Positions 11,216 through 24,884 of a DNA stretch of 28,421 nt are shown here, in pieces. Positions within the stretch are counted from its first letter, which is position 1; the number at the start of each line of letters is the position of its first letter. The position numbers and the translations under genes are program-made. The notes beneath the pieces are model-generated. The model did no database searches and was not told the DNA's origin. It saw only the letters and a list, made by a program, of their open reading frames with translations. Source of the DNA: a virus. The DNA is taken from IMG/VR virus record IMGVR_UViG_3300032331_001651, positions 1 through 28,421 of that record, one strand, 5' to 3'.

Positions 11216-11385
11216 ACTGGGTCTATCAGATCCTGAAGGCTCTGCTGGACTGGATCCGAGAAACACCACCCACCGATGTGCAACATGGCAAAGCTCCCGA
11301 GGCCCTCAAGAGCGATCTGGCTGATCGCATTGCTGGCCTGCCTGGGCTGCCAGATGACCAAGGTGGTCCTGGTCCCTTCCGGTGA
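11212..11385 (+). CDS. Short protein overlapped by a lipoprotein gene (possible lysis accessory)
   Basis: A GTG start at 11212 overlaps the previous stop (GTGA) and opens a 57-residue frame ending in TGA at 11383-11385. The N-terminus NWVYQILKALLDWIRETPPT is an amphipathic or membrane-seeking helix. ALKSDLADRIAGLPGLPDD is a second helix, followed by a Gly/Pro tail. Its last 101 nt overlap the lipoprotein gene at 11285 in another frame, an arrangement resembling overlapping inner and outer spanin genes. It is much shorter than a usual inner spanin and has no clear coiled coil, so a spanin role is uncertain. GTGA coupling and the sensible composition support it being a real gene. Confidence 0.58.
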   Translation: MNWVYQILKALLDWIRETPPTDVQHGKAPEALKSDLADRIAGLPGLPDDQGGPGPFR

Positions 11386-11503
11386 TCCGGTGATGCTGGC
11401 CAAGCCGGTGAAGGCCAGTGTGTACGCTTTCGATGCAAACAAGAAGCTGGTGGGGCCGTCCACGGTGACGCTGCCTGCCGGCTGGTACGCACTGCCAAAA
11501 TGA
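11285..11503 (+). CDS. Small outer-membrane-type lipoprotein (lysis region)
   Basis: This 72-residue protein has a basic start (MAKLPRPSR), a hydrophobic segment AIWLIALLA and a lipobox LLAC with Cys19 as the lipidation site. The mature part has KVVLVPSGDPVMLAKPVKAS and a closing VTLPAGWYALP, a motif I know from small phage lipoproteins near lysis genes. In a Gram-negative host it would be exported and lipidated. ATG 11276 would add three residues (MCN) and is possible. It is embedded in another frame relative to the 11212 gene, as Rz1-type genes are relative to Rz. Functional assignment as an outer spanin is not proved: it is not proline-rich. Confidence 0.68.
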   Translation: MAKLPRPSRAIWLIALLACLGCQMTKVVLVPSGDPVMLAKPVKASVYAFDANKKLVGPSTVTLPAGWYALPK

Positions 11504-11745
11504 TCAACTACAAGGGCAACAAGTTCTCGGGCTACAACAAGCCCAAGCGCACTCCCGGCGAGTCGAAGAAGTTCGCTGTCCTCGCCAAGGAAGGCGACAA
11601 GGTCGCTCTCGTGCGTTTCGGCGACCCGGACATGACGATCAAGAAGCACATCCCGGAGCGGCGTGCATCCTTCCGCGCCCGTCATGGTTGTGACGAGCCC
11701 GGAAGCAAACTGTCGGCGAAGTACTGGGCGTGCAAGGCTTGGTGA
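11500..11745 (+). CDS. Small conserved phage protein (RFGDPDM...RARHGCD type)
   Basis: This 81-residue basic protein starts in the previous stop (ATGA). Its core RFGDPDMTIKKHIPERRASF, followed by RARHGCDEPGSKLSAKYWAC and a KAW end, is a well-conserved small family in environmental phages (related to DUF5872/DUF6321-type entries, from memory). The Arg-rich helix and two cysteines are kept in the relatives I recall. It may bind nucleic acid or a virion partner, but no experiment-based role is known to me. The opening NYKGNKFSGYNKPKRTPGES is also typical of the family. Confidence 0.75.
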   Translation: MINYKGNKFSGYNKPKRTPGESKKFAVLAKEGDKVALVRFGDPDMTIKKHIPERRASFRARHGCDEPGSKLSAKYWACKAW

Positions 11746-11747
11746 TA

Positions 11748-12206
11748 ATGTTTATGGAATTTGACGATCTAGAATCATTCAAAAACTGGTGGCTTGAAAA
11801 CAGGCCAATCAACACGTTTGATGGATCAAAGCCGTGTTATCATTCAACCATAGCTGGAACCGTTCTCTATAGGCAGTATCCATATCAGGTTCAGTTGTTT
11901 ATCACGCCTCCAAATACGGTAATCGACGAACACATTCATCCTAATGTTGACAGCTTCGAAGTATACATTAATGGAGACATTGTGTTTAGTTGCAATGGAT
12001 ATGTATTTGATTCACCAAAGATAGGTGAATCAATTCGTGTTAAAACAAATTATTGGCACGGAGGTAAGACAGGAAACATGGGAGCCACATTTCTTTCAAT
12101 ACAAAAGTGGCTTAACAATGTTCAACCTTCGTCAGTGGCTAATGATTGGCATGATGCGAAAAACCAGAAAAGTGGGAATGACGTAAACATCACTAGGATC
12201 GAATAG
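11748..12206 (+). CDS. Cupin-fold protein, AT-rich probable moron
   Basis: This 152-residue protein starts at ATG 11748, 2 nt after the previous stop (ATG 11754 is possible). A single cupin domain is suggested by PPNTVIDEHIHPNVDSFEVY, with H62, H64 and E71 as metal ligands, a GD turn at 76-77, and YWHGG with H104 as the last ligand. Cupins range from isomerases and dioxygenases to sugar binders, so the reaction is unknown. The gene is plainly AT-richer than its neighbours: bases 11941-12000 are 21/60 G+C by hand count, against 34/60 at 12301-12360. That, and its position between a conserved small gene and a tail gene, suggests recent acquisition. Confidence 0.72.
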   Translation: MFMEFDDLESFKNWWLENRPINTFDGSKPCYHSTIAGTVLYRQYPYQVQLFITPPNTVIDEHIHPNVDSFEVYINGDIVFSCNGYVFDSPKIGESIRVKTNYWHGGKTGNMGATFLSIQKWLNNVQPSSVANDWHDAKNQKSGNDVNITRIE

Positions 12207-12219
12207 TCTTGCCAATTAC

Positions 12220-13149
12220 ATGAGAACCGTCACCTACGACTACGTCCTGCAACGCGCCTGTGAGCTTACTGGGCGCGTTTTCTCAACGCTGACGACCGAG
12301 GAGTCCAACTTCTTCCGCACGTTCATCTCCATGTCACTACGGAGCGCCTGGGAGTGCTTCGACTGGCCCGAGCAGACCGTGTATCAGCAGGAGTTCTTTG
12401 CGCCCACTTACTCCTACCAAAACACCTACAACGCCGGGGACGTGGTCTACTTCCCGGTCGAGGAGAAGTATTACCAGTGGGTCAACATCACGCCGGGTGC
12501 CGGCCAGAGCCCGACCACTAGCGGCCCCAACGGCACGCTCAACTCAATCTACTGGTCCGAGGCACAGCCTTCCTACGGTAACAATGATGGCGACTGGGGC
12601 AGCACCACCTCCTACACCATCGGTCAGATCGTGTTGTATCCGGTGACGCAGGAGCACTATCAGCTCTATGCCATTGCACCGTCCGGCACCGTCCCGACCA
12701 ACACAGCCTACTGGGGAATCCTGAACAAGTTTCTGCGCAATATCTCGCAGACCAACAACCCCGACGGCACAACCCGGGCTGTCCCCATCGGTGAGACCTT
12801 CTCGGTCTGGCCAGCCGACCCTCGTGTCACCTGGCGTCAGCAGGAGGTCACGTACACGTTCACCGATGACGGTGTGCTGGTTGGGAACGACCTCCCCTAC
12901 GTCTGGCTGGAATTCCGCAAGACCCCACCGCTCCTGTCCAGTGCCGCAGAGGCCACCGCCTACGCCTTCCCCTACCGCTTCTGCGAGATCTGCTCCATCA
13001 AGGCGGCCGGTCAGATGCTGCGGGTCGACGGCAAGATCGACCTGGGCAACCAGTTCCTTGAGTTAGGAGAGGTTGAACTCACCAAGGAGATCGACAAGGT
13101 GGCGCTGCAAGAGAAATATGTGCGGCAGATAATCGTGCCCTCCCGGTAA
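12220..13149 (+). CDS. Putative head-tail adaptor or tail protein with two chitin-binding-like inserts
   Basis: This 309-residue protein precedes the nozzle-like gene, the place of an adaptor or gatekeeper in T7-like and P22-like phages. The N-terminal 60 residues are helical (YDYVLQRACELTGRVFSTLT, FRTFISMSLRSAWECFDWPE) and the C-terminus has PYRFCEICSIKAAGQMLRVD with a helical end, as adaptor subunits do. Between them lie two repeated units, about residues 70-114 and 123-167, each with a (Y/T)xxGD/QxV strand, an aromatic (Y/H)YQ strand and a closing YW. They look like small carbohydrate-binding modules (CBM5/12-like). The whole could be an adaptor that displays glycan-binding domains. The adaptor call is from order and overall shape. 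Confidence 0.65.
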   Translation: MRTVTYDYVLQRACELTGRVFSTLTTEESNFFRTFISMSLRSAWECFDWPEQTVYQQEFFAPTYSYQNTYNAGDVVYFPVEEKYYQWVNITPGAGQSPTTSGPNGTLNSIYWSEAQPSYGNNDGDWGSTTSYTIGQIVLYPVTQEHYQLYAIAPSGTVPTNTAYWGILNKFLRNISQTNNPDGTTRAVPIGETFSVWPADPRVTWRQQEVTYTFTDDGVLVGNDLPYVWLEFRKTPPLLSSAAEATAYAFPYRFCEICSIKAAGQMLRVDGKIDLGNQFLELGEVELTKEIDKVALQEKYVRQIIVPSR

Positions 13150-17042: not shown

Positions 17043-17456
17043 ATGATCCCCCAGATCACAGACTACCTGCTCCGTAAGCTCCCCGACAGCTTCAAGGGCT
17101 GGACCCGTGAGGCCGTCGAGGACTACGTCATGTTTCATGCGGAGCAGGGTACGCTCAAGATCGCCACCCAGGACGACCATGTGGTCGGTGTGCTGGTAGG
17201 CTGGCGTCAGACGGGTCCGGAGCCTAAGGCCTGGGAGTGGCAGCATTCCGACCCCAATGGCGACCACTGGTACTGGCATCAATTCGCCGCGGATTGCGCG
17301 GTATTCGCCATGGCAGTGGCGGCTAAGTTCTTCCATGACCGACCGGAGGCTGCAATCCTCCCGGCTATCGGCTATCGCAACGGCAAACTGACCACCTACA
17401 AGAAAGGCTCAATGCCGATCTTCAAGGTGGCGGACAAAAAATATGGCATCAGTTGA
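17043..17456 (+). CDS. Possible GNAT-like virion-associated protein
   Basis: This 137-residue protein starts at ATG 17043, just after the previous stop. Strands and helices alternate: REAVEDYVMFHAEQGTLKIA, HVVGVLVGWRQTG, WYWHQFAADCAVFAMAVAAK, EAAILPAIGYRNGKLTTYKK. The order is compatible with a degenerate acetyltransferase (GNAT) fold. T7 has a small GNAT-like gene (gp13) in the same place just before its internal core proteins, so a similar assembly role is plausible. I cannot see a clear acetyl-CoA-binding Q/RxxGxG/A loop, so an active enzyme is unlikely. It overlaps the next gene by 14 nt. Confidence 0.55.
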   Translation: MIPQITDYLLRKLPDSFKGWTREAVEDYVMFHAEQGTLKIATQDDHVVGVLVGWRQTGPEPKAWEWQHSDPNGDHWYWHQFAADCAVFAMAVAAKFFHDRPEAAILPAIGYRNGKLTTYKKGSMPIFKVADKKYGIS

Positions 17457-18297
17457 GGCACCAGCACCACGAAACTACGCTCAGGAAACTGCTGATACAC
17501 TGCGTACCCAGCTTGAGCTGGCGCCGCAGAGGTATGCAGCAGAGGCTCAGTTTGCGCCAAAATACCAGGCGCTGACTATTGACCTCCTGAAGAAGGCAAC
17601 ACCTGATCTGCTGCAGCTCTACAAGGAGCAGATTGCCCCGACGATGGGTGAGGTCGAGGCGGCCGCCCGTAGCCGTTCCAGATATGGAGATATTACTGAT
17701 ATTTCAATCCTCGGACCTCAAGCCCGTGCCGCCATCCAAGGCTTTGCCCCGGAGCAGACCCGCATTGCCGACATCCTTGGCCAGAACGCGACCTCCAATC
17801 TCCTTGCCGGCTCCCGGCTAACACCCGAGCAGCAGCGGATGGCGCAGCAGCAGGCTCGTATAGCCTCGTCCGCCCGCGGTATGGCCCAGGGCCCGAATGC
17901 CGCGCTGCAAGAAGCCCTGCGCTCCCAGATGATCGGTGCCGGCCTCCAACAACAGCGCCAGCAGCAGGCCATGGGCGCACTGCAGGCCGGCCAGGGCGTG
18001 TATGGAGACGTGTTCCAGCAGGTCTTGGGACGGCCTTCGCAGGCCTTTGCAGGATCTCAGGGATTCGTAGGCCAGGCCTCGGGCTTCAACCCCGGCCAGC
18101 TCTTCAACCCAGAGAGCGCCTACGCATCCAACATCTACGCAGGCAACCAGCAGTCCATTGGCGCTGCCCGGGCTGCCGGTGCATCCGCTACATCCGGCCT
18201 GATCGGTGGCGGCCTCGGTGCTTTGGGAAGCATTGGTGGAGGATTGTTTAGTGGTGCCGGATCTGCCGGCGGTTTCGGGAAACTCTTCGGAGGCTAA
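17443..18297 (+). CDS. Internal virion / ejection protein (first of three)
   Basis: This 284-residue protein starts inside the previous gene, 13 nt after an AAGGTGG. It is Ala/Gln-rich and helical: RNYAQETADTLRTQLELAPQ, QALTIDLLKKATPDLLQLYK, then a Gln-rich middle (LTPEQQRMAQQQARIASSAR) and a Gly/Ala/Ser-rich C-terminal tail (GLIGGGLGALGSIGGGLFSG) that could insert into a membrane. The N-terminal pattern is one I know from many environmental phages next to ejection proteins. In position and composition it resembles T7 gp14, which forms the outer-membrane pore during DNA entry. The functional match is inferred; sequence identity to gp14 is not claimed. Confidence 0.7.
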   Translation: MASVEAPAPRNYAQETADTLRTQLELAPQRYAAEAQFAPKYQALTIDLLKKATPDLLQLYKEQIAPTMGEVEAAARSRSRYGDITDISILGPQARAAIQGFAPEQTRIADILGQNATSNLLAGSRLTPEQQRMAQQQARIASSARGMAQGPNAALQEALRSQMIGAGLQQQRQQQAMGALQAGQGVYGDVFQQVLGRPSQAFAGSQGFVGQASGFNPGQLFNPESAYASNIYAGNQQSIGAARAAGASATSGLIGGGLGALGSIGGGLFSGAGSAGGFGKLFGG

Positions 18298-18300
18298 TCT

Positions 18301-19983
18301 ATGGCGACTTACGGCTATTCAGCAGGCTACCAAGGTGGAGGACCACAGGCCGTTCCTTCCGGCTACATCGAGGCCTACTCGCAGGCCGGGCGCAACATCG
18401 GCCAGGGTATCCAGCAGATCGGCAATGCCATCGGCGAATCCCTGCAGCGTTATGGCCAGAACAAGGCTGAGAACGAGTTCCTGACGTCACGCCTTGAGTC
18501 GCTGGCCCCGTATCTGAACACCGTTGCCCAGAGCGGCAACATCATGGACAAGAACACGCCAGAGTCGAAGCTGCTCGGCGACATCGAGAAGTTCTCGTCG
18601 ATGTCCATCCCGCAGAAGAAGGCCACACTGCTCAATGCGGAGTTCTATCTGGATCGGGCTGACAAGGCCAAGGCGCGTGAGTTGCAGGATCTTCAGACTC
18701 AGCAGATCAAGAACCAGATTACCACCCAGCAGCAGCTCGGTGAGCTGATGCGCTACGGCATGACGATGCCGACCACGCAGACCGTCACCGAGCCGACCAC
18801 CGAGATGCTGCAGCCGGTTGGTCCGGTGCAACCAGCTACTATGCCGCCTACGGCTCCTGTATTCGACCAGCAGGGCTATATGCAGGCACTGGAGCGCTAT
18901 CGCCAACAGTCCAGTGTTGCACCTAGCGACACACAAGCCATCCAAGCCCAGTTGGCAAAACTTCAACCAATGTTGGTCGAGCGCCCACAGCAGTTCCGCA
19001 TTCCATCGCTTCAAGGTGGCATTGGCGGAGGAATGGGCGTGTCGATGGCGACCATCACAGAAAACCCAAAACAAGCCGTTGGACGCATTCTGGATGCCCA
19101 AAGGCAACAACAAGTGCTTCAAGCGCAGCTTCAGCGTGCTCAGGCTCCACAGCCGACCATGCCGACGCGGGAGCAGTTTACTACACAGCCTGCAGCTCAA
19201 CAGCCTGCAGCACAGTTCCTGCCTCCAATTGAGGTGCAAGGCCAGACCACTCGCACCGAGGCTGTGCCTTACGAAAACTTGCGCAGGAATATCGCTCAGT
19301 ACGCTGCCCAGCAGGGTATGCGACCAGAGGTGTTTGCCGGTCTTGATCGCGTGCTTGAGATTGCTGGACAACAGAAACCCATCCAAATCGACACCCAGAC
19401 CCTGCCCGGTGGCATCACCGTGGTGCGTGCTGACGGCAAGGTCGACATTCTGCCTGCGCCCAAGATGGTCGAGGGCAAACCGTTGACTGAAGCGCAAGGC
19501 AAGTCAGCAGCATTTGCTGCCGGCATGAAATTGAACAACGAGACGATCAATAGCGTTTTCAAGTCTGGATACTCTCCAAGGTCTTTGACTGAATTCGGAT
19601 TCATGCCTGAACGGTTGAAGACCGATTCTCGCAAGTCATACGAGGCAGCGCGTGACGCTTGGATTGAAAACTTCCTTAGAGATCGCTCTGGCGCTGTTAT
19701 TTCACCGGATGAATACCCAGCGGCTGAAAAGCAGTATTTCCCAATTGCTGGAGACAGCGAAAAAGTGGTGAAGCAAAAAGAACTGATGCGTATTGATGCC
19801 ATGAACAATACGATGAAAAAAGCTGGTCAAAACGCTGATGATTACGTGAACCAAATCAGCAGCGGTGGTCAGACACGCTCACCACTGCTGTCTGACCCCC
19901 GTGTTGCCGCTATCCGAGCACGTCAGGCTTCAGGAGCCATCACCAAGCAGCAAGCCGTTCAACAAATCGAATCCCTCAAATGA
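18301..19983 (+). CDS. Internal virion / ejection protein (second of three)
   Basis: This 560-residue protein has a GGAGG 7 nt before its ATG. Residues 1-60 contain a small helical repeat (EAYSQAGRNIGQGIQQIGNA). A coiled-coil, Gln-rich and proline-rich middle (residues about 110-320) follows. The C-terminal 170 residues carry a recognisable domain: GKSAAFAAGMKLNNETI, then FLRDRSGAVISPDEYPAAEK, then QYFPIAGDSEKVVKQKELMR. I know the 'RSGAAI...E....YFP..GDS...V..K...R' pattern from phage structural proteins, where its role is not defined. In order and composition it corresponds to the gp15-type core protein of T7-like phages. Its stop overlaps the next start (ATGA). Confidence 0.75.
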   Translation: MATYGYSAGYQGGGPQAVPSGYIEAYSQAGRNIGQGIQQIGNAIGESLQRYGQNKAENEFLTSRLESLAPYLNTVAQSGNIMDKNTPESKLLGDIEKFSSMSIPQKKATLLNAEFYLDRADKAKARELQDLQTQQIKNQITTQQQLGELMRYGMTMPTTQTVTEPTTEMLQPVGPVQPATMPPTAPVFDQQGYMQALERYRQQSSVAPSDTQAIQAQLAKLQPMLVERPQQFRIPSLQGGIGGGMGVSMATITENPKQAVGRILDAQRQQQVLQAQLQRAQAPQPTMPTREQFTTQPAAQQPAAQFLPPIEVQGQTTRTEAVPYENLRRNIAQYAAQQGMRPEVFAGLDRVLEIAGQQKPIQIDTQTLPGGITVVRADGKVDILPAPKMVEGKPLTEAQGKSAAFAAGMKLNNETINSVFKSGYSPRSLTEFGFMPERLKTDSRKSYEAARDAWIENFLRDRSGAVISPDEYPAAEKQYFPIAGDSEKVVKQKELMRIDAMNNTMKKAGQNADDYVNQISSGGQTRSPLLSDPRVAAIRARQASGAITKQQAVQQIESLK

Positions 19984-22900
19984 CCCTATCCAAAGCAGAC
20001 ATCGACTTGTTGTTCGGTCCAGAACCAGCAGACAGCGTCGAGAGCCTGCTGGATGCTCCGATCACCGGGGAGGACATCTCGCTGGCAATGCAGGACCCTG
20101 CTTTTACGCCAACTCAGGAAGACTACCTGAAGTACGAGGAGTACTCCAAAAACAAGCAGACCGACTGGATCAACACCGCCGCTCAAGCCGCAGATGCTGC
20201 CATTGGAATGATCAGTGGCGCGGTTTCTCAAGGCGCTCAAGGCGCTGCAGCAAACCCACTGAACTACCTAGAGGGATTTGCTCAAGGCACTCGCCAGCTT
20301 TACGGGCTTGCTGCTCAGTCTCAGGATCCATCGTCAGCACTCTTTAAGTTCAAGGATCTTGTTGCCGGCACCGGCACACCGGAATCGCGCTACCAGCAGT
20401 TCCTTGATGCCCGAGACTTCGCCAATACCACCGCCCGACTGGAACGCGGTGAAGAAGGTATCGTTGTTCCGCCTGAGTACACCAATCCGGAGTACGTGCA
20501 GGGAGTCTCAATGATTCTCGACCCAACGCTGTTTGTACCCGGCGTTGGTGAAATCCTTGGAACAGGCAAACTCGCCACCCGTGCTGTCGGCAAAGGCGCT
20601 CAACTCACCGGACGTGCTGTTGCTGGCGCTGCAAGGCCTCTTGAGCGCTTCGCAGGTGCTGCCGAGCGTATGACAGCGGAAGCGCTTGGAATGACGCCAG
20701 AAGCGCTTCGCACCGCTGCTTCCACCGCCGGCATTGCAGGTGCCCTCGGTATTGCACCCGAGGCTGCTGCCTTTGCTGCAATCCCTGCCGGCATCCGTAC
20801 CGCACGCGAGGCCGGCGAGGCCCTGACCCGTGCCGGCGAGAACCTGATGACCCAGCCCTCCCGCATTGGTCCTTTGGAGGCTATCGGCGCTGCACCGGGG
20901 GCTAACCTGCGCCAGCGTATGCTCGGTGTGGTCGGGCAGTACGGCGGTGACGCTGCACTGGATGCCTCACTCAGGGGGCTTGCCGGAGGTATTGAAGGTG
21001 GAGTGATTGGTACAGGCTTGGGCTATTTGTCCGGAGGCGAAGAGGGGGCCGCTGCAGGCCTAGGCGCTGGTGTTGTGCAGGGCGCTGCCGGTGCTATCGG
21101 TGGCCGTGCCTACCAGAAGCTCACTGGCAAAGCTGCCGCGGAAGCCCGTGCTGGCGACCTCGGGCGATTCATCGACGCCCAGCAGGATCCGACGACCAAG
21201 GCGCTGTTTCAACAGTTGCGTGATAAGCACGGCGTGGATGCGGCATCCAGCCTGATGGACTTGCAGGGCCTTGTCCGCGGCAAGTTCGGAGACGTCGAGG
21301 TGGAGTATCTTTCCAGCGAAGACTTCGCCAAGCGCTACAAAATCAACGCCCGGGGCGTGCAGGTTGAGAACAAAGGTGGCCGGCCTGCGGTGGTTATCAA
21401 CGCCGACATCATCGGCAAAGGAACCGGCGACGGCCCGCTCTACACGCTCGGCCATGAGCTATTCCACGCTCTTGAGAAGAGCACTCAGCTCGAGGCCGGC
21501 GCCACCGAGATCAAGAACGCTCTGGTGGGTCGATGGATTCAGGAAGGCGACACCATCCGCAAGCTGGCCGATGGCGCTTTCAATGACGCCGAGATCGAGG
21601 CCCGTTTCAATCAGTACCGAGACAAGCTGGGTGCTGGCAATGCCTCCATGGCAGACGAGCTCGCTCAGTACGACACCATCAACAAGAAGGCCGACTATGT
21701 GGCCTCGGAGCTCGCAGCAGAGCACTTTGCAGGACTCTTGGCCGGTCAGAAGCCCGATGCATTGCTCAAGGGATTCACGGGCCTGACAAGGCAGCTCGTC
21801 GACCTAGCGCTGACTCAGAACGCCAGCCGGGCCTTGGCCGATGCCGCAGCGACTATTGAGCGCACTTTCGGAGTCAAGCCCACCGATTCTGTCCTCTTCC
21901 CGGATCTAAAGCAGGCCTCGCCCCAGGTTAACGCCATGCTGCGCGACTTGTTGCGTGCTCGGCGCAAGCTGGATGAGAAGATTAAAATCCAAGGTGAACA
22001 GACCAAGGTAGTCCTCAAGCCTGAGGATGTTTCCAACCCGCTGGCGGCTAAGCAATTGGTCGAACTTGGTTTAGCTGAACAGATGCCCGACGGCACGATC
22101 CGGTCAATGTCCAGCGAAGAGGTAGTGGCCCGAGAGGACAAGGACCGTGAAAGCCTTCGAGCCATCATTGAGAACACACCGGGCACTGCCCGCATGGTTG
22201 ATGGCGTTGCTCAAGGTCGCTTGAGCCCGGAGCAGTTGTCTGCCATCGAGCAGTCCCAAACAGTCAGCAGCCGGATGAAGGATAAGATCCGGGCCGCGAA
22301 CGCTGCAATGGACGCTGGCAACAGCCTCAACATCACCTACAGCGCAGCGCTCAAGAAGATCATCAACCGGCTGACTGGTAAAAAGGTCAACAGGTATAGC
22401 AGCGGCATCCGCCTCACTGACCGTGACGTGCTTCCGTATGCGTTCTACTTCTCGAAAGCGGATCATCCGCTGATCAAGGCCATCGACATCAGCTATGTGC
22501 GGGATGCCATCCTGAAGGACACAGCCTCCAACGGTAGTGTGGGCAAGGGCCTTTGGGACAACGTCGACGGGTTCATGGGCGACCTGGCGAAGTACTTTAC
22601 CAACCTCGACCAAAAGGAGGGCGCCCGCCGGTCTGCCGAGATCTTTGGATTGGAGAAGGCCAAGTACCTTGGGGACTTCATCAACCAGAGTGAAAAGTTT
22701 GTCCGCGACTTCCGCTTGGACCGTATTGGTTCAATAGCTCCATCCGGTTTCCGCGCACGCTTCTCGGAGGAAGCCTACCAGCTCTCGAAGCAGCGCTGGA
22801 TGCCTGCCGAGACCATCGGCGACAAGTCGGTCATCAACTCCGACGAAGGCTACCGCATCATCAGCGGTGCCAAGCACAAGCTCTACAGCCCCGATGGTAA

Positions 22901-24884
22901 ACTCATCGGAATCTACGACACCCAAACCCAAGCAGAAAGGAAAGCAGATGCCACTCAAGCAAGGCTACAGCCAGAAATCGATCAGCAGCAACGTGTCCCG
23001 CGAAATGAAGTCGGGCAAACCGCAGAAGCAGGCCGTGGCAATCGCGCTCTCGGTCGCACGCAAGGCCGAGAAGAAGGCCGGCAAGAACTCGGGACGGTTC
23101 GACAAGCGGGGGATGTGAGGTTCATGCCAGACCAGCAGGGCTTCTACAGCAAGCTGGAAGAGGTTGTCACAGCGAAGCTGCCCAAGATTGCTTCGCCTCA
23201 ACAGGTGCTTGCCTCCGTTGATCCTGCGAAGGGAAGCGGCGTAAAACCCGAAGAACTCAAGTGGACTGGGTTTGCGCAGGCAGTTGAGCGCATTGCCAAG
23301 GAGAACGGAGGAAAGGTTCCCAAGGAACAACTGATGCAGCACTTAAAGAGTGAAGGTGCTGTGCGGTTCAAAGAGGTCACCACTGAAATCAAAGGCAAGA
23401 CGATCACTCAGGAAGAGGTCGACCGCCTTGAGCGCAGAGCCCAGCGAACGCAATCAAACGCTGACTGGTCTGCCTACGAAGACGCAGTGCTGCGCTTTGA
23501 AAGCCAAGAGCTTGGAACCGAAGCGCAGTATTCAAGGTATCAGTTGCCGGGAGGTGAGAACTACCGCGAGGTGGTGCTGACCTCTGACAATGCGAGTCCG
23601 TACACGTCGACTCATTTCAGAGACATTCCAAACTACGTTGCCCATATGCGGGTCAACGAGCGTGCAGACAACAGTGGAAAGCCGGGTCTATTCATTGAGG
23701 AGATCCAGTCTGACCGCCATCAACAGGCGCGTGAAAAGGGATATCTTGAGGATCAAGGAACTGATTGGTCGAAGGTTCCAGTGTATCAGTACCGTGATCT
23801 GGTGGCTAAAGGCGAGTTCCCTAGCGTCATGCACATTGAGGTCAAAGACGGTCTGTACCGGCTTGTGGCTCCTGATGGCGGTGTGCACCACGTTGAAGGA
23901 TCGCTTGAGAAGCTGAAGAAGAACTACGATTCAAGAATCGCCAAAGGCATTGCAGACGCACCGTTCCGAAAAGACTGGTCGCTGCAGATGTTCAAGCGTG
24001 CGCTGCGCGATGCTGTCGCTTCTGGAAAGGAATGGATTGGGTGGACTACTGGAGAGACTCAGGTAGAACGGTTCGACCTTAGCAAACAGGTTGATTACAT
24101 TGATTATCGTCGAGTCGGACCCGACAAATATGATGTTTCGGTTGTTGGCAAAAATGGAACCGACTTGTTTTCTGAAACGGGCATAGATCAAAGCCGCGTA
24201 TCTGATGCCGTCGGAAAAGAGATCGCCGACAAAATAGCCAAAGGAGAAGGTCAGCCTGGTGGAGGCAGGATGACATTGCGTGGTCTTGATCTCAAGGTCG
24301 GCGGCGAAGGCATGAAGGGTTTCTACGACAAGATCCTTCCCACTGAGATACAGAAGTACGTCAAACAGTGGGGGGCTAATGTGGAGAAATCCAATGTTCC
24401 AGAGGCTAATGTTTGGCGCGTTGATATTACGCCAGAAATGCGTAAGTCGGTGAGTGAATCAGGTCAGCCTCGCTTCATGCCTGCCGGCGACATGGCTACT
24501 GGCCGTAGCGTCAAGGACCACCGCGAGGCCATGGACCTGTTTGAGAAGGGCTACAGGCTCTACGGTGCGCTCTACGACGGCATGGAGGATCCCATCCGGC
24601 TGAAGAAGGTTTCCGAGATCGAGCGGTTCGATCCGGAGAACCTGTGGGCGGTGCCATCCAAGAAGATCGCCGCGGCAATCAGCGTGCGGAATATGCCGGC
24701 TGACTTGATGCCACAGCCCGACTCAGCCATGCCCGGGGCCTACAGCTTCACCGGCGGCTACCGTGCCCTCCCAGGCAAGGCCAAAGGCTCCCTCCGCCTC
24801 TACGGCCCTGCCAGCAGCCTGATCGGCATCGCGGCCAGCATTGACGAGGCCCAACGCATCATCCGCAAGAAGGCCAAGCAATGA
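19980..24884 (+). CDS. Giant ejection/polyvalent protein with HExxH metalloprotease and C-terminal domains
   Basis: This 1634-residue protein is the last of the internal-protein set. Residues 1-190 are helical. Residues about 195-390 are Ala/Gly-rich with membrane-like segments, as in proteins injected into the host. A zinc-metalloprotease motif HELFH lies at 492-496, with ELAAEH (E577, E581) downstream as a possible third ligand. Residues 600-930 have no family I can name. Three C-terminal domains each follow an R-[FW]-M-P sequence: R939 (then [19 protein letters not shown]), R1047 (then a domain with EEIQSD at 1240-1245 and [10 protein letters not shown] at 1442-1451) and R1498 (then [20 protein letters not shown]). 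A second gene lies in another frame across residues about 990-1047. The EEIQSD domain is known from phage polyvalent proteins with unresolved activity. Confidence 0.82.
22948..23118 (+). CDS. Nested small phage protein, overlapping gene in +1 frame
   Basis: This 56-residue basic protein lies wholly inside the 19980-24884 gene. Its core, [20 protein letters not shown], is a conserved signature of small phage proteins (similar to DUF6496-type 'KQAIAI.LS.AR' proteins), preceded by the usual [10 protein letters not shown] and followed by a Lys/Arg tail. It has its own AGAAAGGAA site about 7 nt before the ATG. By hand count 48/56 sense codons end in G or C, while in the host frame the same bases give 26/57, so this frame looks like the constrained one. 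Its TGA overlaps codon 1047 of the large gene. The function of the family is unknown; the Lys/Arg content suggests nucleic-acid binding. Confidence 0.8.

Follow-up and report, generated by a model that had tools for sequence, protein, structure and literature searches.

A single-domain cupin gene probably carried from one tailed phage to another as a one-gene cassette

What does a short, AT-rich gene lying between two phage genes encode, in what company is it found in other phages, and how did it reach its present site? The window (the whole stretch of viral DNA analysed here, 28,421 bases) holds at 11748-12206 on the + strand an uninterrupted frame of 152 codons and a stop. This frame and its two neighbours are as follows.

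11748..12206, + strand: cupin gene, 152 aa, or 150 aa from the alternative start at 11754 (open frame and translation, AlphaFold, Foldseek, VIA-align).
11500..11745, + strand: 81-aa gene just upstream of the cupin (PHROG 7595, E 3.6e-22, function unknown).
12220..13149, + strand: 309-aa gene downstream of the cupin (best PHROG E 0.24; the query that gave the 79 loci discussed below).

The G+C content of the cupin frame is 38.8% (37.9% at third positions). Windows of 459 bases, moved in 10-base steps and all clear of 11748-12206, have a mean of 58.2% and a minimum of 47.1%. A sequence-only reading of this DNA had counted 21/60 G+C in 11941-12000 and described the composition as far from that of the neighbours; a recount gives exactly 21/60, and the wider comparison agrees with the description. 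The start codon is less clear. A GGTGA at 11741-11745 is 8 bases 5' of the ATG at 11754 and 2 bases 5' of 11748, and in L004, one of the nearest homologues, the gene begins at the residue corresponding to this second ATG. As GGTGA is better spaced for 11754 and L004 starts there, the true N-terminus may lie two residues further in, giving a protein of 150 residues.

The frame had been read as a cupin, and structure prediction supports this. With a 26-member alignment of the family as input, AlphaFold gives a confident double-stranded β-helix (pLDDT 92.3, pTM 0.88), and the best Foldseek and VIA-align matches are cupins. Foldseek finds 455 PDB chains at E ≤ 0.001, those listed being cupins, with small cupins such as phosphomannose isomerase, TM1459 and KdgF at the top; VIA-align fits the model to 7zvy_E with Z 13.9 (rmsd 1.6 across 102 residues). 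An unnamed BFVD protein, D6PF24, has 34% identity and a TM-score of 0.81 to the model. Seed storage cupins score almost as high as the small cupins, so that the fold says little about chemistry. Against Pfam Cupin_2, the window protein scores 12.5 bits, below the cut-off of 27.2, and the other family members are also under the Pfam cut-offs (best Pfam E 0.0034). Membership in the superfamily is supported by the predicted fold rather than by profile scores.

Both cupin motifs can be traced in part in the protein. Motif 1, given as G(X)5HXH(X)3,4E(X)6G in the available text of PMC3765361, falls on N56, H62, H64, D68 and G76; the HxH and the last glycine are kept, N replaces G, D replaces E, and seven residues rather than six precede the final glycine. 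For motif 2, G(X)5PXG(X)2H(X)3N in the same portion of PMC3765361, G93 and H104 are in exact register, with K99 in place of proline (which is the family consensus), N101 in place of glycine and T108 in place of asparagine. The residues of the presumed metal site are encoded as follows.

11931..11939, + strand: codons of H62 and H64 (HxH), presumed metal ligands, in 71/71 aligned rows.
11949..11951, + strand: codon of D68, presumed fourth metal ligand, in 71/71 rows (spacing H64+4).
11958..11960, + strand: codon of E71, conserved, a ligand in the sequence-only reading, in 70/71 rows, with Q in the remaining one.
12057..12059, + strand: codon of H104, presumed third histidine ligand, in 70/71 rows, the gap being a frame that ends at the contig end.

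The 71 rows are 70 distinct genes, including the window's own copy (L104), plus the window row, so the window is counted twice; the 70 genes encode 62 distinct proteins, and L141 is incomplete. H62, H64, E71 and H104, which had been proposed as an intact set of ligands, are all present at that numbering. The three histidines are present in all complete family members aligned and keep their presumed role; that of E71 is less certain. The ligands of oxalate decarboxylase (H95, H97, E101 and H140) and of acireductone dioxygenase (H96, H98, E102 and H140), as listed in the available part of PMC3765361, place the acidic residue four positions after the second histidine. D68 fits this place, and E71 is at H64+7. 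The fourth ligand is likely to be D68 rather than E71, although E71 is almost as conserved (70 versus 71 of 71), which counts against this assignment. The metal site is presumed to consist of three histidines and one aspartate.

A profile scan of viral contigs returned 280 stretches that encode relatives of this cupin, the best 80 of which were analysed. Around the 70 distinct genes, with neighbours taken from a simple ORF caller, TerL or portal is the immediate neighbour in 37 cases and lies within two genes in 42; the neighbouring gene is on the same strand in 68/70 cases upstream and 66/68 downstream. Shared descent of a few phage groups may account for part of the bias towards terminase and portal. 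Among the listed loci with both flanking genes, 8 of 78 in the TerL-portal group and 6 of 47 in the portal-107-aa group carry the cupin, and in the latter group its position varies relative to a 52-aa gene. Where the cupin is missing, TerL and portal are separated by at most 30 bases in 54 of 70 loci and by 156-794 bases in 16; gaps of the longer kind leave room for other small genes at the same site. Both sites resemble entry points for cargo into late operons. The long gaps, in which no cupin was detectable, are in L213, L214, L216, L218 and 12 others of the 70. Genes for 2OG-Fe(II) oxygenases lie directly beside the cupin in some loci (among them L025:3983-4963 and L118:684-1262), and L201:6001-6952 holds two tandem cupins of the window family that are 38% identical to each other.

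The seat beside terminase, portal and head genes would suit a component of the virion or of head assembly. The neighbour counts (37 and 42 of 70) fit such a role, as does the group of loci L004 to L014, in which the cupin is located between portal and scaffold-like and head genes. The cupin is missing, however, from 70/78, 41/47 and 76/79 listed loci of three groups (the last being the window's own) in which the neighbouring head or tail genes remain. Its absence from most loci of these groups speaks against a core head-morphogenesis gene; a dispensable decoration protein would still fit. Overall, we regard a structural role as unlikely, and favour an accessory gene that encodes an enzyme or binding protein.

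Such a gene would probably be expressed late. A simple scan of 11250-12450, whose coverage does not extend to other promoter types, finds no promoter-like site on the + strand. Terminator-like sites in the same interval number three (1.3 expected), with none just after the cupin gene; a 10-pair terminator-like hairpin is located inside the gene at 12007-12033. Comparison with the L004 gene (78% DNA and 89% protein identity) gives dN 0.064 with dS too large to estimate; the cupin gene is under purifying selection as judged from these substitutions, and the earlier suggestion of a working gene is well supported. The gene lies next to late genes, and we assume that it is transcribed together with them. 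The product would then be a late-expressed, metal-dependent enzyme or binder of a small molecule. Several of the top structural matches are sugar enzymes, which makes sugars a reasonable guess, but structural comparison brings up many unrelated cupins with similar scores, which makes it a weak one; the protein perhaps acts on sugars. A long shot is that the family serves phage counter-defence by capturing or destroying a small signalling molecule of host anti-phage systems. If true, this would explain why a strongly selected single-gene cassette roams unrelated phages though most of their relatives do without it.

The libraries searched seem to contain no description of this family. None of the models in Pfam, PHROGs, NCBIfam or PADLOC claims it; one of 26 members matched PHROGs (E 0.052) and none of 26 matched PADLOC. 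In tblastn against isolate phages, the cupins of the window, L025, L137, L109 and L091 gave no convincing match; the single query with listed matches gave 11 records at E 0.3-0.8, with 31% identity across 36% of its length, and most of these fall in tail-fibre genes. blastn of the bin locus L206 against phages gave no match. Isolate relatives of the window's portal and major head proteins are distant (up to 31% identity). The style of the contig names suggests that these phages may be aquatic. The family is not described in the available text of the literature searched, including PMC7824862, PMC13288928, PMC10100988, PMC3765361 and PMC8812541. At least 280 viral stretches thus represent a cupin family that has no library name and carries an invariant signature ready for biochemical test; a ligand or substrate, if found, would show what it is that many uncultured phages keep acquiring.

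The sequence-only reading had proposed a homologue search for the donor group; the nearest sources found are other phages and no bacterium. The nearest copies of the cupin (82-92% identical) are on viral contigs. Outside the window's site, the closest are L004 to L014 (11 loci), which belong to a different phage group with the order homologue of the 81-aa gene, cupin, then head genes; the L004 protein is 89-92% identical to the window cupin. In the protein tree, where bootstrap support did not converge and the placement of several long branches is uncertain, the four window-site copies form a clade (97/83) inside a ten-row clade with the L004-type copies (100/97). The 81-aa gene occurs in both phage groups and its 3' end is similar in the two, so this gene may have anchored the first transfer. 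At the window site, subtracting contig from cupin G+C leaves −0.19 to −0.20, far beyond the value in 65 other copies (mean −0.035, sd 0.030, range −0.106 to +0.037), which indicates that the immediate AT-rich donor was not sampled. None was found among the copies compared, L004 having 78% DNA identity and 50% G+C.

Cupins are common in bacteria. Direct capture from the host bacterium, as an auxiliary metabolic gene, would account for the foreign, AT-rich composition, and two relatives do come from metagenome bins, which bear the names Planctomycetia and Rhodospirillaceae. These are 41% and 34% identical, on contigs of 3.7 and 5.1 kb, and come from one of two scans of genome contigs from a bacterial and archaeal collection, in which 2 of 18 candidate stretches were relatives; the other scan gave 0 of 108. 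As the profile scans rely on short conserved peptides, divergent bacterial cupins can be missed. Set against 280 viral stretches, and with the nearest copies on viral contigs, these counts leave a bacterial donor unsupported, and we consider this origin improbable.

The history of the site itself can be followed in relatives of the window. A search with the 309-aa gene gave 79 distinct viral loci among the matches listed. Three of these (L015, L016 and L017; L034 and L035 are the contigs of the latter two) carry the cupin, as does the window, and 76 do not. In 70 of the 76 cupin-less loci, 2-9 bases separate the end of the 81-aa gene from the start of the 309-aa gene; in the remaining six, the 81-aa gene is likewise not found. 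The gap between the two genes in carriers is 477 bases. The proposed insertion between phage genes is borne out by flanking genes that nearly abut in 70 of the 79 listed relatives, and the expected absence from close relatives is seen in 76 of them. The same gene with the same composition in all relatives, which would have spoken against a recent gain, did not occur. The 81-aa gene, missing from L051, L052, L082, L085, L096 and L100 of the 79 listed, seems to come and go too; two Roseobacter phages have relatives of it with the annotation 'HVA1 family protein'.

Two further segments are defined by comparing carriers with cupin-less relatives.

11736..12219, + strand: sequence common to the four carriers and missing from aligned empty sites (junction alignments).
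11703..12378, no strand assigned: recombination tract in the window (informative-site scan; left edge 11697-11703, right edge approximately 12267-12396).

The left junction is identical in all four carriers (TGCAA, then GGCTTGGTGATAATG), and there is a one-base difference among the right junctions. For the pair of window and L015, dS is 0.011 for the cupin, 0.25 for the 81-aa gene and 0.63 for the 309-aa gene. For the other five carrier pairs, the cupin dS is 0.08-0.12; that of the 309-aa gene is 0.14 for L016-L017 and 0.55-0.91 for the other four. By the 309-aa gene, the nearest relatives of the window have no cupin (dS 0.09-0.25, six tested). In the tree of this gene (77 sequences, leaving out the partial L098, L100 and L101), the window and seven cupin-less loci form a clade of 8 with support 0.93, and the four carriers occupy three separate places, implying at least three changes of state.

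Informative sites were those with one base common to five cupin-less close relatives and a different one in a carrier, with L015, L016 and L017 each used as the carrier. At 11694 and 11697, the window is identical to the cupin-less relatives. From 11703 to 11747, it is identical to the carriers at 12/13 (L015), 13/13 (L016) and 11/15 (L017) sites. On the right side, the window is carrier-like at 12267 and relative-like from 12396 in the L015 comparison; with L016 and L017, sites at 12330-12378 are mixed, and the window is relative-like from 12402 or 12405. The switches at 11697/11703 and approximately 12396 indicate that a tract of about 0.6-0.7 kb was replaced in a backbone of the cupin-less type. 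The window thus acquired this tract by homologous recombination, and the history is most simply read as a single founding insertion with later exchange of this kind among relatives. The window is also 93-98% identical to the cupin-less L044 in 12200-12399, so this stretch alone is not diagnostic. Outside the tract, identity between the window and L015 is uneven and returns to 90-100% after approximately 12900, which counts against the reading favoured here; isolated carrier-like sites reappear at 12900-13149, and further exchange is likely.

That the gene was recently gained, as first proposed from its composition, is well supported by the empty sites, the near-identical copies in divergent backgrounds and the tract with visible edges. 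Vertical inheritance from an ancestor of the group with loss in most members, for which four copies at one site with nearly identical junctions could be cited, is very improbable, being strongly disfavoured by the dS contrast (0.011 beside 0.63), carrier-like sequence only from approximately 11703 to 12378, a G+C content 19 percentage points under the genome (3.5 on average in the 65 other copies) and carriers in three places on the 309-aa tree. The locus is an unusually clean case of a phage gene moving between lineages, with empty sites, junctions and both tract edges visible.

Two other genes were noted. A distant cupin of 109 aa with normal G+C (55-60%) is present in L091:13732-14061 and 23 other loci of the window group; hhalign relates it to the 152-aa cupin with a probability of 96.4%. 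It sits after the homologue of window gene 17443-18297, in 24 of 50 loci that hold this neighbouring gene and in 22 of 41 with room, and is absent from the window. A functional swap between the 109-aa and 152-aa cupins is unsupported, the window being the only 152-aa carrier that covers the site (n=1). The 1634-aa protein encoded at 19980-24884 has no Pfam match at E 0.01; it contains an HELFH stretch that we take to resemble a zinc-protease motif.

Taken together, we put the probability at roughly 70% that this is a 'moron'-type accessory gene that encodes a single-domain cupin, with three His and one Asp as the presumed metal site, and is carried as a mobile phage cassette that was inserted once in this group and spread by recombination, and that its product is a metal-dependent enzyme or binder of a small molecule. 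The family, found almost only in viral contigs, would move between tailed phages as a one-gene cassette, settling mostly co-oriented in late gene clusters and most often beside packaging and head genes. The window group would have received one founding insertion after the 81-aa gene, the source probably being a phage in which the 81-aa homologue also precedes the cupin, followed by passage between relatives through homologous recombination in the flanking genes. Expressed late with its neighbours, the cupin would bind a metal and bind or turn over a small molecule, possibly a sugar, in the infected cell.

Among known systems, the small single-domain cupins (TM1459, KdgF, the cupin phosphomannose isomerase and WbuC) share the predicted fold and have the HxH and distal histidine in register. 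The window family differs in its degenerate motif 1, in scores below the Pfam and apparently the NCBIfam cut-offs, and in an additional N-terminal helix and conserved tail (consensus FLSVQKWLN..PTSV..DW). With the NCBIfam WbuC model TIGR04366, matches at E ≤ 0.1 come from 4 of 26 members (best E 0.0034); those listed do not include the window protein. Resemblance to the PCO_ADO thiol dioxygenases (plant cysteine oxidases) is slight at the profile level: 8 of 26 members match at E ≤ 0.1 (best E 0.025), and the nine members listed reach at most 14 bits, below the Pfam cut-off of 27. The conserved D68 sets the family apart from these enzymes, as it is no part of a three-His site; cysteine dioxygenase has such a site according to the available text of PMC3765361. 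The cupins of cyanophage and jumbo phage sugar clusters, likened here by the description in the available part of PMC7824862, are also cupin-fold proteins in phages, but sit in multi-gene sugar or secondary-metabolite clusters, whereas the window cupin is one gene. In genetic behaviour there is a parallel with phage moron genes: a single AT-rich accessory gene lies between conserved late genes and is missing in relatives. It is an extra gene between two that are adjacent in relatives (2-9 bases apart in 70 of the 79 listed), and its composition is unlike that of the genome (38.8% versus 58%, offset −0.19). The absence of a promoter-like site on the + strand in the simple scan would set the cupin apart from morons; its transcription most likely comes from the late operon. 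The process, a phage accessory gene in motion, is a known one; the cupin family that it carries here appears new to the libraries searched.
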